NCBI RefSeq assembly: GCF_009720385.1
Contig: NZ_WARX01000037.1
Coordinates: 1-64,000 of the forward strand
Reading direction: 5' to 3'
Source of the DNA: Catellatospora vulcania
GTDB taxonomy: Bacteria; Actinomycetota; Actinomycetes; Mycobacteriales; Micromonosporaceae
Length of the DNA stretch: 64,000 bases
Shown one piece after another: positions 8,260 to 63,107 of the stretch (the first letter of the stretch is position 1; each line of letters starts with the position of its first letter). The position numbers and the translations under genes are program-made. The notes below the pieces were generated by a model that was not told the DNA's origin, made no database searches, and saw only the letters and a program-made list of their open reading frames with translations.

Positions 8260-8286
8260 GTGAGCGGCAGCGAGGAGCGGGCATGA
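8260..8286 (+). CDS. Leaderless 8-codon leader ORF before the ABC-F gene
   Basis: GTG 8260 lies 6 bases after TAGGCT (8248-8253), the spacing of a leaderless start. The eight codons read VSGSEERA and the TGA overlaps the ATG of the ABC-F gene (ATGA, 8283-8286). The end (GAGGAGCGGGCATGAGC) matches the right end of the dispersed MSER mini-ORF element, so it is a truncated copy of it. Leader peptides often control ABC-F genes, but no attenuator hairpin was found here. Confidence 0.45.
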   Translation: MSGSEERA

Positions 8287-25343: not shown

Positions 25344-26069
25344 TCAGGACCCGGCGGGCAGTGCGTCGGCGGCGGAGGCGGGCGGCCGGTGCTTGACGCG
25401 GCGTAGTGACTTGGGCAGCAGCGCCTTCTCGACGAGGGCGAGGATGCCCTCCACGGCCAGGCAGAGCAGCGCCACCAGCGCGCCGCCGGCCAGCACCTGC
25501 CCGCCGCCGGCGGTCAGCCCCAGCCCGAAGCCCCGGCTGATGATCATGCCGAGGCCGCCGCCGTTGACGTACGCGGCCAGCGTCGCGGTCGCCACCACCT
25601 GCACCGCGGCGACCCGGAACCCGTTGGCCAGGTACGGCACCGCCAGCGGCAGTTCGACCTTGCGCAGCAGCTGCCAGCCGGACAGCCCCATGCCCCGGCC
25701 CGCGTCGCGCACCTCCGGATCGACCTCGCGCAGGCCCAGGTAGGCGTTGGCCAGCAGGGGCGGGATCGCGAACAGGGACAGCGCCAGGATGATCGCCGGC
25801 GGGCCGAAGCCGACCACGGTGAGCGGGAAGATGGTGAGCAGGGCCACCGTGGGCACGGCGCGGCTGAGGTTGGTCACCGTCACCACCGCGGGCCCGCCCC
25901 GCCCGACGTGGCCCATCCAGATGCCCAGCGGCCACGCCACCGCGCAGCCCAGCGCCACCGCCGCCGCGGAGATCCACAGGTGCTCGGTGGTACGCGCGAT
26001 GATGCCGTCAGGGTTGGTCCAGTTCAGCGGGTCGTTCAGCCAGAGGATCGCATCCTCGATCACGCTCAT
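25344..26069 (-). CDS. Osmoprotectant ABC transporter permease (OpuCD type)
   Basis: This 241-residue permease has about five or six transmembrane segments and the EAA-like loop EVRDAGRGMGLSGWQLLRKVELPLA. It resembles the second permease of OpuB/OpuC systems. Its ATG 26069 overlaps the stop of the tandem mini-ORF at 26066-26209, and the mini-ORF in turn overlaps the stop of the first permease, so the three are chained by ATGA junctions on the minus strand. Confidence 0.92.
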   Translation of the reverse strand: MSVIEDAILWLNDPLNWTNPDGIIARTTEHLWISAAAVALGCAVAWPLGIWMGHVGRGGPAVVTVTNLSRAVPTVALLTIFPLTVVGFGPPAIILALSLFAIPPLLANAYLGLREVDPEVRDAGRGMGLSGWQLLRKVELPLAVPYLANGFRVAAVQVVATATLAAYVNGGGLGMIISRGFGLGLTAGGGQVLAGGALVALLCLAVEGILALVEKALLPKSLRRVKHRPPASAADALPAGS

Positions 26070-26209
26070 GCCTTCTCCTCGCTGCGCTCGTCGGCGGCAT
26101 GGGCGGCAGGCCCCTGATTCGCTCGCTGACGCTCGCTTGCCTTCTCCTCGCTGCGCTCGTCGGCGGCAAGGGCGGCAGCCCCCTGATTCGCTCGCTGACG
26201 CTCGCTCAT
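26066..26209 (-). CDS. Tandem-duplicated MSER mini-ORF between the two permeases
   Basis: The 47-residue ORF starts with ATGA overlapping the first permease stop and ends with a TGA overlapping the second permease start. It consists of two near-identical 23-24-residue units (MSERQRANQG...ADERSEEKA, then SERQRANQG...ADERSEEKA). At the inner junction GCATGAGC has become GCAAGC, a two-base loss that fuses the copies in frame. GAGGAGAAGG at the end serves as ribosome binding site for the second permease. It belongs to the dispersed element also seen at 59356 and 62137, with a partial copy at 8260. Confidence 0.7.
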   Translation of the reverse strand: MSERQRANQGAAALAADERSEEKASERQRANQGPAAHAADERSEEKA

Positions 26210-26919
26210 GCGGCCCTCCGGCGGGTCCACGGCATGATGACCCGGCCGACGGCGAGCAGCACCAGGTCGAGCGCCAGCGCGAGCGCCACGCAGAGCAGCG
26301 TCGCGGTCATGATCTGCGGGCGGTAGAAGTTGCTGTTGAAGCCGCCGATGATCAGCTCGCCCAGGCCGCCCCAGCCGGCGATCTCGCCCACTGTGACCAG
26401 CGCCACCGTGGAGACCGTGGCGATGCGCAGGCCGGTCATGATGCCGGGCAGGGCCAGCGGCAGCTCGATGCGCCACAGCATGGCGCGCTTGCCGTAGCCC
26501 ATGCCGCGGGCGCTGTCGAGCACGTCGGCGGGCACCTGCCGCAGTGCGGTCAGCGTGTTGCGCACGATGGTGAGCAGCGCGTACATCGTCAGTCCGATCA
26601 GCACGGTGGTCGGCGCGACGATGCCGGTGAACGGCGCGAGGAACGCGAACAGCGCCAGCGACGGGATGGTGTAGAGCACACCGGTGAAGCCGAGGATCGG
26701 CCCGGACAGCGAGCCGACGCGGTACGCCAGGATCGCCAGCGGGATCGCGATCGCCGTCGCCAGCGCCACAGCGACTAAGGTCAGGAAGAGATGTTCGCGC
26801 AGCGCGGCGAGCAGGGTGTCGGTGTTCTGGCTGACGTAGCTCCAGGAGAACCAGGGGTTGCGCGGATCGTCGCCCGGTGCGCCCCAGGCGAGCACGGCGT
26901 CGTGGACCTTGGAGGGCAT
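26206..26919 (-). CDS. Osmoprotectant ABC transporter permease (OpuCB type)
   Basis: This 237-residue permease has an N-terminal non-membrane stretch and then five or six hydrophobic segments. The EAA-like loop is DVLDSARGMGYGKRAMLWRIELPLALPGI, matching OpuCB/ProW-type proteins. The start is ATG 26919, only two bases from the GTG of the divergent ATPase gene, so both promoters must lie inside the neighbouring coding regions or the starts are misplaced. A GTG eight codons further in (VLAWGAP) is an alternative. Confidence 0.92.
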   Translation of the reverse strand: MPSKVHDAVLAWGAPGDDPRNPWFSWSYVSQNTDTLLAALREHLFLTLVAVALATAIAIPLAILAYRVGSLSGPILGFTGVLYTIPSLALFAFLAPFTGIVAPTTVLIGLTMYALLTIVRNTLTALRQVPADVLDSARGMGYGKRAMLWRIELPLALPGIMTGLRIATVSTVALVTVGEIAGWGGLGELIIGGFNSNFYRPQIMTATLLCVALALALDLVLLAVGRVIMPWTRRRAA

Positions 26920-31247: not shown

Positions 31248-32567
31248 TCATGCCCGGCCGCTGCTGCTGAGCGTGTGCCGTGCGGAGGCCGCAGCCGCTG
31301 TATTCGCGTCGGGGCCGCCGTCATGGGTCGGCGTCGCGTCAGGCGTGCCCGGCGCGCCGGTAGGCGTCGGACGGCGGTCCATCTCCCGCCAGATGCCGGG
31401 CGAGAGCACAGGCAGCAGTGTCGCGCCGAGGTAGCACGCGCCGAAGATCAGCAGCGCCGGGGTGAGGCCGAGGTGCTGCACCGCCCAGCCGCCGAGCAGG
31501 CTGCCCAGCGGGATGCCCGCGAACCCGATCGCGTTGGACAGGCTGAGCACCCGGGCCTGCAGGTGCGCGGGCACCCGCTCGAACATGGTCGCCGCCAGGA
31601 TCGGGTTGACCGCGGCCATCGCCAGCCCGGAGGCGAAGCCCGCGACCAGCACCAGCGTCAGGTCGTCGGCCAGCGCCATCACGGCCAGCCGGGGCGAGCC
31701 GCCGATCAGGAAGCCGATGGTGAACACGGCGTAGCGCGGCGCACGTGGCGCGAGCGCGGTGAAGACCACGTTGCCCAGCACCGCGCCCAGCCCGAAGGCT
31801 GCGCTCACCCAGCCCAGCGCCTCCGGCGAGCCGAGCACCCGGTCGACCCAGACCGGCACGAACACGGCGGCGTTGGCCTGGTCGGCCAGGTTGGTGACGA
31901 ACAGCATGGCCAGGATGCCCGTCATCAGCCGGCTGCCGCGCAGGAAGTCCACGCCGCCGCGCAGCGCCGTCAGGTAGGGCTCCGGCGGCGGCGCGTCGTC
32001 GTCGGTGTCCCGAGTGCCGGCCGGGACCAGTGCGGCCACCAGCATCGCGCAGGCCACGAATGAGACGCCGTCGAGCAGCAGCGCGCCCGGTGCTTCGAGC
32101 CACGCGATCAACACCCCGCCCGCCGCTGCGCCGAGCAGCCCGGCCAGCCGGTTAACGCCGTCGTACACGGTGGTGGCACGGGTCATGTCCACCCCGGACG
32201 CGGCGATGGTCGAGGGCAGCAGCACCCGCTTGGCGCAGTCGCCGAGCCCGCGCAGCGCCCCGGCGAGCACGAGCAGCACCAGCAGCAGGCCGAACCCGCC
32301 GCGCTGCCCCAACGCCACCGCCGCCATCACGACGGCACTGCCCAGGTCGGCGACGATGGACACGCGACGCGGCCCGATCCGGTCGACCAGGGGCGCGCCG
32401 AGCGGTCCGATCAGGACGTACGGCAGCAGCTCGGCCGCCGCGGCCAGGCCCATCAGGGACGGGCTGCCCGTGGTGACCAGCACCAGCCACGGGACGGCCA
32501 GGAACGTCAGCACGCTGCCGACCTTCGACACGGTGCCCGCGATCAGCAGGCCCACCAGGCCTTTCAT
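31248..32567 (-). CDS. MFS transporter controlled by an ArsR-type repressor
   Basis: This 439-residue protein has about 12 membrane segments with the MFS loop GAPLVDRIGPRRVSIVAD. It resembles the MFS_3 (enterobactin exporter/macrolide efflux-like) group. Its ATG 32567 overlaps the stop of the ArsR-type gene (ATGA), so they form a repressor-transporter operon. The C-terminal 45 residues are a hydrophilic Thr/Pro/Ala tail. The exported compound is unknown. Confidence 0.9.
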   Translation of the reverse strand: MKGLVGLLIAGTVSKVGSVLTFLAVPWLVLVTTGSPSLMGLAAAAELLPYVLIGPLGAPLVDRIGPRRVSIVADLGSAVVMAAVALGQRGGFGLLLVLLVLAGALRGLGDCAKRVLLPSTIAASGVDMTRATTVYDGVNRLAGLLGAAAGGVLIAWLEAPGALLLDGVSFVACAMLVAALVPAGTRDTDDDAPPPEPYLTALRGGVDFLRGSRLMTGILAMLFVTNLADQANAAVFVPVWVDRVLGSPEALGWVSAAFGLGAVLGNVVFTALAPRAPRYAVFTIGFLIGGSPRLAVMALADDLTLVLVAGFASGLAMAAVNPILAATMFERVPAHLQARVLSLSNAIGFAGIPLGSLLGGWAVQHLGLTPALLIFGACYLGATLLPVLSPGIWREMDRRPTPTGAPGTPDATPTHDGGPDANTAAAASARHTLSSSGRA

Positions 32568-33133
32568 GCCGGCTCCTCGGGAAACGGCAGCACCTGGAAC
32601 TGCACGTGGACCCGGGCGGTGCCCTCGGGCGCGGCGGCGTCGAGGTCGAAGCGCCGGTAGCGCTCGAACACGGCGAACAGCTCGGCCTGCAGTTCGTGTG
32701 TCTCCTCGGGTGTGAGCTGCCCGGTCCAGTCGCTGATCGTGCCGACGCCCTGCCACTGCGGGGGACGGGTGGCGTACTCGTCGAGGGCTCGGTCGACGCG
32801 GGCGGCGTACTGGGCGGCCACGGCGCGCAGGTAGGCCTCGAAGTCGCCGAAGGACTCGGGATCGACATTCTCGACGGTGGTGCCGCGGTGGGCGGCGCGC
32901 CACCAGCGTTCGCGGTTGTTGCCGCGGGCCGGTTCGTCGGTCACGAAGCCGTACAGGGCGAGCTGGCGCAGGTGGTAGCTGGTGGCGGCGCTGGACTGGC
33001 CCAGCTGGGCGGCGAGCAGGGTGGCGGTGGAGGGGCCCCGCTCGCGCAGCAGGCCGAGCAGGCGTACGCGCAGGGGGTGGGCGAGGCCCCGCAGGGTCCG
33101 CGGGTCGAGGGTGATCCGGTCGGCGGCGCTCAT
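32564..33133 (-). CDS. ArsR-family winged-helix regulator
   Basis: This 189-residue regulator starts at ATG 33133. The N-terminal winged helix is clear (RTLRGLAHPLRVRLLGLL, then ATSYHLRQLALYGFV). No metal-binding cysteine pair is seen, so it may sense an organic ligand through its C-terminal half, which resembles the effector region of ArsR-type regulators paired with MFS exporters. A 30-bp palindrome covers its promoter, which fits autoregulation. It is coupled to the MFS gene downstream. Confidence 0.88.
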   Translation of the reverse strand: MSAADRITLDPRTLRGLAHPLRVRLLGLLRERGPSTATLLAAQLGQSSAATSYHLRQLALYGFVTDEPARGNNRERWWRAAHRGTTVENVDPESFGDFEAYLRAVAAQYAARVDRALDEYATRPPQWQGVGTISDWTGQLTPEETHELQAELFAVFERYRRFDLDAAAPEGTARVHVQFQVLPFPEEPA

Positions 33134-58172: not shown

Positions 58173-58360
58173 GCCCCGACCCTATCGGCCCGCCCGCTCC
58201 GCGCGGCCTTGACGCCCCGCCGATCGTGGGGCGCTCACGGCACGCAGGGTGGTGGTCGGCGGACAGGGCGTGAGCAGGTGTCGGACTGCGGGTGCGCGGG
58301 CGGGGGAACAGGCGCTTGCCGGTTACCCTTTCGAGCGCTCGCGCTGCTAGCGTGGCGGTC

Positions 58361-59356
58361 GTGTCGCGCAGTCGAACCGAACGCCTGGTCAACCTTGTGA
58401 TCTGTCTGCTGTCCACGCGGCGCTTCCTGACCGCCGCGCAGATCGCCGCCACCGTGCCCGGATACGAGCACAACGCCGACGACGCCCGTGATCACGAGGC
58501 GTTCCAGCGCAAGTTCGAGCGGGACAAGGCCGAGCTGCGCGCGCTCGGCGTGCCGCTGGAGACCGGCACCGCCAGTGTCTTCGACACCGAGCCCGGTTAC
58601 CGCATCGCCCGGCGCGACTATGCGCTGCCGGCGATCCCGCTCGGGCCGGACGAGGCCGCCGCGGTCGGTGTCGCGGCCCGGCTGTGGCGTCACGCGGGGC
58701 TGGCCGCCGCCGCGACCTCCGGCCTGGCGAAGCTGCGTGCCGGCGGGGTGGACGTGGACCCGCACGCGACCCTGGGCGTGGAGCCGGTGCTCGCCGTCGA
58801 CGCCGCGTTCGAGCCGCTCACCGCGGCCGCGCGGGCCCGCCGCGAGGTGACCTTCCCGTACCGGGTTCCGGAGGACGACGCGCCGACCACCCGGCACCTG
58901 CAGCCGTGGGGCGTGGTCTGCTGGCGCGGCCGCTGGTACGTCGTCGGCCACGACACGGTCCGCGACGCGCCGCGCTGCTTCCGGCTGTCGCGCATCGTGG
59001 GCCCGGTGCGCCAGGTCGGCGAGGAGCGCGCGTTCGAGCCGCCGGCCGACCTCGACCTCATCAGCTACGTGGCTCGCTGGTCCGGGCCGGTGGAGCGTAA
59101 CCGCACCACCCGGGTGCTGGTGCGCCCCGGTCGTGCCGCGGGGGTACGCCGCTGGGCGGCCAACTGCACCCCGACCCCCGAGGGCGACGTGCTGGAGCTG
59201 CGCTACGCCGACGCGGACGGCTTCGCCGCCTGGCTGGTGGGATACGGCGCGGACGTGACGGTGCTGGAGCCCGCCGAGGTGCGCGAGGCGACCATCGCCC
59301 GGCTGCGCGAGATCGCCGGCGTGAGCGCCGCCGCGGAGCTGGCGGAGGTGGCCTGA
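58361..59356 (+). CDS. pafB: WYL-domain transcriptional activator PafB
   Basis: PafB pairs with PafC to activate the LexA-independent DNA-damage response in mycobacteria. The 331-residue protein has an N-terminal winged helix (RTERLVNLVICLLSTRRFLT, AAQIAATVPGY), a WYL domain (YVVGHDTVRDAPRCFRLSRI) and a WCX C-terminal domain. Start GTG 58361 lies 7 bases after TAGCGT (58348-58353), so it is probably leaderless. Its stop overlaps a mini-ORF that links it to pafC. Confidence 0.93.
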   Translation: MSRSRTERLVNLVICLLSTRRFLTAAQIAATVPGYEHNADDARDHEAFQRKFERDKAELRALGVPLETGTASVFDTEPGYRIARRDYALPAIPLGPDEAAAVGVAARLWRHAGLAAAATSGLAKLRAGGVDVDPHATLGVEPVLAVDAAFEPLTAAARARREVTFPYRVPEDDAPTTRHLQPWGVVCWRGRWYVVGHDTVRDAPRCFRLSRIVGPVRQVGEERAFEPPADLDLISYVARWSGPVERNRTTRVLVRPGRAAGVRRWAANCTPTPEGDVLELRYADADGFAAWLVGYGADVTVLEPAEVREATIARLREIAGVSAAAELAEVA

Positions 59357-59427
59357 TGAGCGAGCGCCGCGAGCGGATCAGCAGGCCCGTCGATGCCGCC
59401 GGCGTGCGCGGCGAGGAGAAGGCATGA
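59356..59427 (+). CDS. MSER mini-ORF between pafB and pafC
   Basis: ATG 59356 overlaps the pafB stop (TGATG) and the TGA overlaps the pafC start (ATGA). The 23-residue peptide begins MSERRERI and ends RGEEKA. The final GAGGAGAAGG is the ribosome binding site of pafC. It is a full copy of the dispersed element; ATG-to-ATG distance is 68 bases. Confidence 0.65.
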   Translation: MSERRERISRPVDAAGVRGEEKA

Positions 59428-60371
59428 GCAGCGCGAAGACGTCCGCCGACCGGCTGGCCCGGCTGTTGAACCTGGTGCCGTACCTGCTGGCCCGGCCGGG
59501 TATCGAGCTGGTCGAGGCCGCCGCCGATCTCGGTGTGTCCGAGCGGCAGCTGCGCGAGGACCTGGAACTGCTGTGGGTGTGCGGCCTGCCGGGCTACGGG
59601 CCCGGCGACCTGATCGACATGTCGTTCGACGGGGACCGGGTCACCATCACCTATGACGCGGGCATCGACCGGCCGCTGCGGCTCACCCCCGACGAGGCCA
59701 CCGCGCTCGTGGTGGCGCTGCGCATGCTGGCCGAGACGCCGGGCGTGGCCGACCGCGACGCGATCCACCGCGCCCTGACGAAGATCGAGCAGGCCGCGGG
59801 CGAGATCGACGCGCCGGTGGCGGTGCGGCTGCCCGGCAACGACGACCGCCTGGCCGACCTGCGCTCGGCGCTGGAGCGCGGCAACGCGCTGCGGCTGAGC
59901 TACTACTCGGCGGCCCGGGACGTGTCCAGCGAGCGGGTCGTGGACCCGATGCGGCTGCTGTCGGTGTCCGGGCGCTCCTACCTGGAGGCCTGGTGCCGCT
60001 CGGCGGGCGCGGTGCGCATGTTCCGGGTGGACCGCATCGACGCGCTGACCGAGCTGGACGAACGGGCCGCGCCGCCGGCCGAGGCGCAGTCCGGCGACGT
60101 CGCCGAGGGCGTGTTCCAGCCGGACCCGGACTCGCCGACGGTCACCCTGCGGGTGGGCCGGGGCGGGCGCTGGATCACCGAGTACTACCCGTGCGAGTCG
60201 GTGGTCGAGGTGACGCCGGAGGAGTGGCTGGTCTCGCTGCGGGTCAACGACATGGACTGGGCGCGCCGCCTGGTGCTCGGGCTGGGGCCGCAGGTGGTCG
60301 TGGTGGCCCCGGCGGAGCTGGCCGAGTCGGTGCGCGACAGCGCCGTGGAGGCGCTCGCGGCGTACGCGTAG
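59424..60371 (+). CDS. pafC: WYL-domain transcriptional activator PafC
   Basis: PafC is the partner of PafB. The 315-residue protein has a winged helix (RLARLLNLVPYLLARPGIEL, GVSERQLREDLELLWVCGL), a WYL domain (SYLEAWCRSAGAVRMFRVDR) and the WCX domain that ends in ELAESVRDSAVEALAAYA. The WYL domain probably binds single-stranded DNA as the damage signal; this is from work on related proteins. GAGGAGAAGG precedes ATG 59424, provided by the mini-ORF element. Confidence 0.93.
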   Translation: MSSAKTSADRLARLLNLVPYLLARPGIELVEAAADLGVSERQLREDLELLWVCGLPGYGPGDLIDMSFDGDRVTITYDAGIDRPLRLTPDEATALVVALRMLAETPGVADRDAIHRALTKIEQAAGEIDAPVAVRLPGNDDRLADLRSALERGNALRLSYYSAARDVSSERVVDPMRLLSVSGRSYLEAWCRSAGAVRMFRVDRIDALTELDERAAPPAEAQSGDVAEGVFQPDPDSPTVTLRVGRGGRWITEYYPCESVVEVTPEEWLVSLRVNDMDWARRLVLGLGPQVVVVAPAELAESVRDSAVEALAAYA

Positions 60372-62098: not shown

Positions 62099-62136
62099 TC
62101 GCGGCGGCTCGTCCCGCGCGGCAAGGAGTGGCGGGA

Positions 62137-62208
62137 ATGAGCGAGCGGAGCGAGCGAACCATCGGCTCGGTGCCTGCCTGCGACGAGCGCAGCGAGGAGC
62201 GGGCATGA
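62137..62208 (+). CDS. MSER mini-ORF before the lipid kinase gene
   Basis: ATG 62137 has AAGGAG eight bases upstream. The 23-residue peptide begins MSERSERTIG and ends DERSEERA; its TGA overlaps the ATG of the next gene (ATGA, 62205-62208). The ATG-to-ATG distance is 68 bases, as in the pafB-pafC copy. Confidence 0.65.
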   Translation: MSERSERTIGSVPACDERSEERA

Positions 62209-63107
62209 GCGGGCTGAGCGAGATCGTGGTGCTGCGGAACCCCGGCGCCGGCAGAGGCCGGCACCGGGGTTCTCTGCCTGGTGTGCTGGAACGGCTCGGC
62301 GCGGCGGGCCGCCCGGTGCGGGTGCTGGACGCGCCGAGCGCCGCGGAGGCCGAGCAGGCCTGCCGCGACGCCGTCGCCGCGGGCGCGGGAGCGCTGGTCG
62401 CGATGGGCGGCGACGGCACCGTGCACGTGGCGCAGCAGGCCGTCGCCGGCACGGCCGTGCCGCTGGGCGTCATCCCCGCCGGCACCGGCAACGACTTCGC
62501 CACCAGCACCGGGCTGCCCGCGGACCTGTACGCGGCCGCCGACGCCATCGCCGCCGCCCTGCGCGAGGGCCGCACCCGGGCCCTGGACCTGGCCCGCATC
62601 ACCTGCCTCGACGGGACCGTGCGCTGGTACGGCGCGGTGCTCGCGGCCGGCTTCGACTCGATCGTCAACGAGCGGGGCAACCGGATGCGATGGCCCCGCG
62701 GCCCGCTCCGCTACGACCTCGCCGTGCTGCTGGAACTGGCCCGGCTGCGGCCCCGCCGCTACACGGTCACCGTCGACGGGCAGACCAGCGTGCTGGACGC
62801 GGTGCTGCTGGCCGTGGGCAACACCGCGGCGTACGGCGGCGGCATGCGCATCTGCCCCGACGCCGACGCGACCGACGGCCTGCTCGACATGGTCTGGGCC
62901 GAGCCGGTTTCCCGGACCACCCTCATCCGCATCAAACCGCGCGTCTACCAGGGCACCCACATCACCCACCCGAAGGTGCGCTCGCTACGCGCCCGGGAGA
63001 TCACCCTCGCCGCGGAGGGCATCGTCTGCTACGCCGACGGCGAGCGCATCGGCCCACTCCCGGTGACCGTCACGGCCGTCCCGCAGGCGGTCCACCTACT
63101 CGGCTGA
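62205..63107 (+). CDS. Diacylglycerol/lipid kinase family protein
   Basis: This 300-residue protein belongs to the DagK/YegS/BmrU lipid kinase family. It has the start EIVVLRNPGAGRGRH, the nucleotide-binding VAMGGDGTVHVA, the PAGTGNDFA motif and a C-terminal sandwich domain (GNTAAYGGGMRICPDADATD). It phosphorylates a lipid such as diacylglycerol; the substrate is inferred from family. Codons 11-23 form a near-perfect 16-bp hairpin in the mRNA (62237-62272), close to the start, which may slow initiation. Confidence 0.92.
   Translation: MSGLSEIVVLRNPGAGRGRHRGSLPGVLERLGAAGRPVRVLDAPSAAEAEQACRDAVAAGAGALVAMGGDGTVHVAQQAVAGTAVPLGVIPAGTGNDFATSTGLPADLYAAADAIAAALREGRTRALDLARITCLDGTVRWYGAVLAAGFDSIVNERGNRMRWPRGPLRYDLAVLLELARLRPRRYTVTVDGQTSVLDAVLLAVGNTAAYGGGMRICPDADATDGLLDMVWAEPVSRTTLIRIKPRVYQGTHITHPKVRSLRAREITLAAEGIVCYADGERIGPLPVTVTAVPQAVHLLG

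Follow-up and report, generated by a model that had tools for sequence, protein, structure and literature searches.

The window analysed here is a 64,000-nucleotide stretch of Catellatospora vulcania (contig NZ_WARX01000037.1, positions 1 to 64,000 of the forward strand). In the interval between tatC and a diacylglycerol kinase gene it carries a 68-bp element unit (62137–62204, +) that is followed directly by a further ATGA (62205–62208, +). The unit is matched at E = 1.4e-11 by R1, a model built from A1, an alignment of 44 copies. A mini-ORF, MSERSERTIGSVPACDERSEERA, runs from 62137 to 62208 (+), and its stop TGA (62206–62208) overlaps the start codon (62205–62207) of the host gene, which Pfam identifies as diacylglycerol kinase/YegS-like (62205–63107, +). 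AAGGAG at 62123–62128 (+), presumably the native ribosome-binding site, now stands ahead of the mini-ORF, and its equivalent precedes the native start in G494, a relative without the element (aligned by eye). Ahead of the host start the element supplies its own GAGGAG (62194–62199, +). Two hairpins were placed by eye on this copy: a left one at 62137–62159 (+; A1 columns 1–23, tip GC-GGA-GC), in which the outermost pair is here an A.C mismatch, and a right one at 62172–62208 (+; tip GC-GCA-GC, loop 62189–62191), the 3′ strand of which includes both the Shine–Dalgarno (SD)-like GAGGAG and the host ATGA.

Another 68-bp unit (59356–59423, +; R1 E = 4.6e-11), with its 3′ ATGA at 59424–59427, separates a pafB-like gene from pafC. 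The upstream WYL/WCX gene (58292–59356, +; pafB-like by Pfam and sequence) ends in a TGA that shares one base with the 5′ ATG of the element, and the host gene pafC (59424–60371, +; HTH_PafC E = 3.5e-44) encodes a protein with 97–99% identity (best segment) to PafC of four named Catellatospora species (Micromonosporaceae). On the opposite strand, the copy at 26066–26209 (−) consists of two fused units (start-to-start 140) that R1 scores separately, at 26135–26209 and 26066–26140, and that form a single ORF because the internal ATGA has lost its TG; its left loops read GTCA, a GNNA. It lies between two ABC permease genes (both by Pfam), one stopping within its 5′ ATGA (26206–26919, −) and the host gene starting at its 3′ ATGA (25344–26069, −). 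A short deletion form with a start-to-start distance of 23 (8260–8286, +), found by pattern match and absent from the R1 matches at E ≤ 0.01, precedes an ABC ATPase gene with two ABC domains. The initial annotation had named these as three full copies and one partial copy. Their sequences and coordinates hold on re-reading the window, as do the distances of 68, 68, 140 and 23, all 3n+2; the copies are real, with 26066–26209 being two units and not one. When up to one mismatch is allowed, GAGGAGNNGGCATGAG matches five places in the window, where 0.01 would be expected by chance (0/100 shuffles reach five), and four of them are the copies already named. The fifth, a near-match to the right end (GAGGAGCCGGCATGAA, one mismatch; 32563–32578, −), was found by pattern only and is not among the R1 matches.

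Copies are not confined to the window. The whole-genome search that the initial annotation had proposed gives 74 R1 matches at E ≤ 0.01 in the 8.83-Mb genome, spread over 17 of its 36 contigs, and a longer right-end pattern matches 71 times, with none for reversed-pattern controls. The consensus unit of about 71 bases consists of RTGAGCGAGCGNAGCGAGCGAAYC, a variable middle and CTCAYGCCGCCGACGAGCGNAGCGAGGAGAAGGC, followed by the next RTGA. Start-to-start distances of the model matches are 58–81, tandem arrays included (for example C15:129099–129315), and the family is thus both dispersed and tandem, as MIRUs are. RTGA is present at both ends in 62/74 matches. Among these, 54 lead into an ORF of 60 or more codons with GC3 ≥ 0.85, a weak control because 49% of the window's RTGA sites overall, counting codons inside genes, pass as well; the other eight comprise six inner units of tandem arrays and two copies (C1:355070 and C1:355141) that precede short frames only. 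The 5′ TGA also terminates an upstream coding-like ORF in 32/62 copies, an operon stop–start junction, and other copies, such as that at 62137, are found at free-standing starts. Short forms with a start-to-start distance of 26 occur in this genome (e.g., L007, L048 and L049) and in relatives (L013, L062) and fit a deletion between two GAGCGNAGCGAG direct repeats that leaves one tip, the SD and the overlap. A parent element of greater length with these ends did not turn up among 41 left-end matches, 39 of which fall on copies already listed; of those outside, C1:652744 is a short form. L390 (G000:C14:127705–127728) is a lone left-end-like sequence, by eye at a gene start and with no right end within the 4.5 kb examined, and may be an absorbed remnant or chance.

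Orthologous loci in relatives show precise presence and absence of the element. No element lies at the pafB–pafC junction of C. bangladeshensis, C. sp. KI3 or C. tritici. The junction is occupied in C. paridis, C. sichuanensis and C. coxensis (start-to-start 59, 113 and 68, respectively), as well as in C. methionotrophica, where the copy is much decayed (95). At the 62137 locus, G494, G465 and G445 have the native start only, with a ribosome-binding site before it, and the equivalent stretch in our genome now lies ahead of the 5′ ATG. The host's own upstream sequence and ribosome-binding site have therefore been retained ahead of the 5′ start, as the coupling cassette of the initial annotation would have it. 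By script, 28/75 ortholog comparisons are empty, covering 18/28 loci, although some are loosely aligned. These empty sites place insertion at start codons, as in MIRUs, and together with the tens of copies in the genome they bear out the earlier suggestion of a mobile element; they also refute the reading, offered with it as the alternative, that the similarity is local duplication only.

The same comparisons correct the proposed target. The initial annotation had taken ATGAGC to be duplicated at the two ends, and the empty sites show the repeated letters to be RTGA (the start codon plus A), because the bases after ATGA at several of them (L033, L059, L063, L042) are not GC; the GC after the 5′ RTGA belongs to the element. 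At L033, for example, an empty GGC-ATGA-ACGTCG corresponds to an occupied GC-ATGA-GCGAGC...GGC-ATGA-ACGTCG, and L042, L059 and L063 behave likewise. The start letters of empty relatives match the 5′ letter of the insertion at many loci: where relatives have a GTG start, the 5′ end of the insertion is also GTG (L010, L013, L043, L056, L061, and pafC in G445 compared with G465). At L061 our genome has GTG and the G816 copy ATG. Exceptions are L036 (GTG in relatives, ATG in our genome), L031 and L057. L010 (G000:C10:187300–187377 in our genome) carries an extra ATGAGC before the native GTG, which is kept 6 bases inside, two codons downstream of the newly gained ATG AGC; the G816 copy is arranged likewise, and G494 and G445 are empty. 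This arrangement fits neither plain RTGA duplication nor end-joining.

The reading frame is strongly conserved. A 3n+2 spacing between starts holds for 58/62 copies with two RTGAs, spread over seven lengths in the range 59–77 (exceptions 58, 61, 70 and 72), and in these 58 the mini-ORF overlaps the host start by the four bases RTGA, as in MIRUs. Against a one-third chance this has a probability of about 2e-23, a figure that treats as separate copies that share descent; erosion after insertion is for that reason the better test of frame. Five relatives were searched, and 75 ortholog places at 28 loci were taken from three of them. The script scored 28 of these as empty and 33 as occupied, and at the other 14 it saw no start where the 5′ place aligns. 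On inspection by eye, several in this last class and a few in the occupied one are truly empty (L014, L036, L011, L012, L043), and among the 28 some alignments are loose (L053, L020, L034). In the 33 occupied rows the mini-ORF ends on the host start in 26 and not in 7, some of which are probably empty sites in fact. Orthologous copies of unchanged length are coupled in 6/7 cases.

A second script selected occupied places whose length differs from that of our own copy, with ATG or GTG starts only and leaving out distances below 16 and the arrays L012 and L041. All 18 selected mini-ORFs (lengths 17 to 119) stop on the host start, a result that the row selection somewhat favours, since these filters drop 6/7 uncoupled rows, including L028 in G445 (TTG start, 109 bases). 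An SD-like stretch is kept in 17/18, and, by a crude pattern, the right tip in 9, the start-codon pair in 5 and the left hairpin in 5; the corresponding counts in 41 full copies of our own genome are 41, 34, 28 and 25. Length-changed copies thus keep overlap and SD and often lose structure, so host selection seems to retain the former and not the latter. On these comparisons, frame conservation outlasts both peptide and structure. The translation-coupling cassette described in the initial annotation accordingly gains support from the 3n+2 lengths and the frame kept in the selected orthologs; its account of the element had the coupling layout right and lacked the two hairpins that pair with start codons.

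These hairpins emerge from covariation. In a column-pair search of A1 and its flanks, pair 1–23 ranks first (z = 18.7), followed by 47–75, 49–73, 51–71 (not complementary), 45–76 and 5–19, and all six lie opposite each other within two coding-strand hairpins, which sit subterminally on one strand as in IS200/IS605-type elements. Across 17 proposed Watson–Crick pairs, 89.8% of cells are standard (85.2% in shuffles), 10 of the pairs show double changes (3.6 in shuffles), and the covariation score is 0.186 compared to 0.106 when shuffled (0/500) and 0.073 or less for slid structures. Tandem G.A mismatches sit between the paired positions, and the right tip GC-GNA-GC occurs in 36/43 distinct A1 rows. 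Stem letters differ in other genera while pairing is kept (CCGAAA..TTTCGG in L125, GTGACC..GGTCAC in L116). We also swapped arms among elements, starting from 94 (42 of our own and a single one from each of 52 further genomes), of which the 77 with an exact right tip near RTGA were kept and 17 dropped. With one element per genome (45 genomes, our own included), 10.98 of 16 Watson–Crick pairs form with an element's own arm and 9.17 with a swapped one (0/2000 permutations).

Both hairpins contain a pair formed by the start codon's first letter. The left partner of this letter agrees in 50/52 genomes (our own included; A-T 34, G-C 16, A-C 1, G-A 1) and its right partner in 42/44 (our own not counted; A-T 30, G-C 12, G-G 1, A-C 1); left fold-backs were picked by best pairing, which leans toward pairs, and the tip determined those on the right. 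Genomes that are related do not count as independent draws. Covariation thereby shows that each hairpin pairs with the start codon next to it. Folding energies of six single copies as RNA were no better than those of shuffles; energy rules score GNA-type loops poorly. Curated covariance models of Rfam 15 gave no match at E ≤ 0.1 in five loci.

The loops resemble a motif known from DNA. Mini-hairpins of the type d(GCGNAGC), with a GNA or GNNA loop on two or more closing G-C pairs, have been described as exceptionally stable in DNA, and the same tip rule applies here; the part of the literature we draw on treats them as a structural motif of short DNA fragments and describes no role in mobile elements (PMC4686876). 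Scanning viral contigs for the left stem with varied loops gave 55 stretches with GNA, 7 with HNA, 3 with GNB and 8 with a GNRA tetraloop, the 55 being non-independent because some contigs are near-identical and, by eye, mostly not this element. The loop rule in viral contigs is that of DNA, which argues, short of proof, that the hairpins may act as DNA. GNA loops and G.A pairs can form in RNA as well. The hairpin GAGCGAGC-GNA-GCGAGCGAA turns up in phage contigs that differ widely in composition (L391–L445), mostly without the rest of the element; variants such as GCGACC-GNA-GGGAGC are found nearby (L397, L430), and there is a strong preference for G and A in the loop. A single 75-base query of plasmid and phage records gave no match at E ≤ 1e-3.

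We consider it likely that the family consists of mobile mini-ORF elements of MIRU type, present in Catellatospora and other actinobacteria, that insert at RTGA, couple their mini-ORF to the host gene and have hairpins that serve their movement. At the level of sequence, its dispersal, its precise insertion and the presence of the start codon within the predicted hairpins are well established. Insertion at a start codon followed by A leaves an RTGA on either side of the element. From the host's upstream region and ribosome-binding site, translation would then begin at a mini-ORF of about 8–26 codons (47 in the fused copy), the TGA of which overlaps the host start, with the element's GAGGAG as a new ribosome-binding site. 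Judging from the conserved frame, the host gene would stay translated by termination and reinitiation after the mini-ORF, making the insertion nearly neutral. On the covariation evidence the coding strand folds into two hairpins, in which tandem G.A mismatches occur and the tips are usually GC-GNA-GC. We infer that a folded single strand, probably DNA, moves, that internal guide letters match the start codon that is chosen, and that the moving enzyme is supplied in trans, although our searches turned up no candidate for it: the Y1 transposase PF01797 has no match at E ≤ 0.01 in the genome, with 6/14 control genomes matching. Since eroded copies keep frame and ribosome-binding site and often lose the hairpins, these probably serve movement and not host regulation.

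Other explanations fit parts of this evidence. Hairpins acting in the mRNA could bury the host start and SD until the mini-ORF is read, so that covariation is kept for regulation and mobility is a separate matter. GAGGAG and the host start codon do both lie inside the right hairpin, the pairing tracks the start letter and the mini-ORF frame is conserved. Yet the 18 length-changed copies retain frame (18) and SD (17) far more often than the tip (9), start pair (5) or left hairpin (5), GNA outnumbers GNRA, phage contigs carry this hairpin in the absence of the remaining element, and the six single-copy RNA folds do no better than shuffles; we regard a role in mRNA as unlikely, though worth keeping in mind. 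That the mini-peptide itself is the selected product would account for the long 3n+2 series and the recurrent MSER...SEEKA peptides, but the peptide is often unrecognizable in length-changed orthologs (e.g., 17, 32, 41 and 47 bases start-to-start) in which the overlap stays, and this seems very improbable. Least credible of all is local duplication or convergence on an RBS-like sequence with no mobile element: tandem units exist (as at C15:129099–129315) and SD-like purine stretches are common before starts, but 74 matches on 17/36 contigs and a reversed-pattern control of zero speak against it, and the empty sites in relatives refute it.

Closest in strength to our preferred reading is insertion at any RTGA followed by selection that leaves the copies at start codons, which would make start targeting unnecessary. 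RTGA is the sole target letter pattern seen, and the mini-ORF layout safeguards expression at starts alone. Such a process predicts many neutral intergenic copies, however, and besides the six inner tandem units only 2/62 lack a coding-like ORF, a contrast weakened by the 49% of window RTGA sites that pass the same test. We give it serious weight, a little below an even chance.

The general kind of element described here is already known from mycobacteria. MIRUs are described as dispersed or tandem short repeats, apparently mobile, that insert at start codons and carry an ORF coupled by a −4 overlap (PMC12548453, citing Supply et al. 1997); according to a second account, in M. bovis a class I MIRU makes up the whole 77-nt 5′ UTR of a gene whose M. 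marinum ortholog has none (PMC4128351). Going by these descriptions, the Catellatospora element is likewise short, dispersed and tandem, located at start codons and with its ORF in −4 overlap. What is new is the family, which extends across several actinobacterial families, and its anatomy. At E ≤ 1e-3 and with our own genome included, R1 matches at least 80/121 genomes and 28/44 genera of the family, at least 62/200 genomes and 21/61 genera of the order, and at least 10/98 genomes of the class, all lower bounds because the filters are strict. An exact right-end pattern searched over the phylum proved too strict (2/396 genomes, our own included), and R1 was used instead.

The genus of G038, which we take to be Mycobacterium from a match to a known MIRU string and from the tandem period, contributed no genome to the R1 matches in the order and class searches, a difference at the level of sequence. 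MIRU-type units with a GAGC-GNA-GCGA tip, shared with the Catellatospora element, are nevertheless present in 69/148 genomes of that genus. Unlike the Catellatospora family, these have tandem periods of about 50–55 that are often not 3n+2 (e.g., G692:C71, G789:C1, G727:C1), and start-codon pairing was not seen in them by eye. Among the open-licence papers listed, neither MIRU relatives outside mycobacteria nor a MIRU hairpin came up, which does not prove absence from print, and the hairpin letters appeared in just one unrelated paper. In IS200/IS605 and REP/RAYT elements, hairpin ends lie on one strand and guide letters pair with a cleavage or target tetranucleotide. Our element is similar in its one-strand hairpin ends and has candidate internal guide letters; it differs in the absence of a Y1 transposase match from the genome, in having RTGA at both ends and in the position of the candidate left guide 3′ of its hairpin.

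One possibility, which we put forward tentatively and hold somewhat less probable than untargeted insertion at RTGA, is that actinobacterial start-codon elements, perhaps including MIRUs, are gene-less single-strand DNA transposons. Guide letters in GNA hairpins would base-pair with the start codon, so that the element would tell ATG from GTG and find its way to translation starts, where coupling hides its cost; the same hairpin module in diverse phage contigs would point to a widespread host or phage enzyme. Strand bias with respect to replication showed no sign by eye at a handful of positions in two single-contig genomes, too few for a real test. MIRUs are widely used for typing mycobacteria, and, as far as we know, how they move and why they lie at start codons is an open question. 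A dense family with clean empty sites and start-tracking hairpins in an ordinary soil bacterium opens these questions of movement and placement to direct testing in harmless strains. The foldable, start-pairing ends suggest a testable way for such elements to choose sites, and a stop–start overlap that is kept while peptide and structure decay offers a natural test of translational coupling. Repeats at translation starts are also known from cluster K mycobacteriophages, whose SAS and ESAS motifs (13 bp and 17 bp) differ in that the sections consulted describe no mini-ORF or overlap, and are alike in their position at starts, in AGGAG and in having inverted repeats upstream in about half of cases (PMC3203893).
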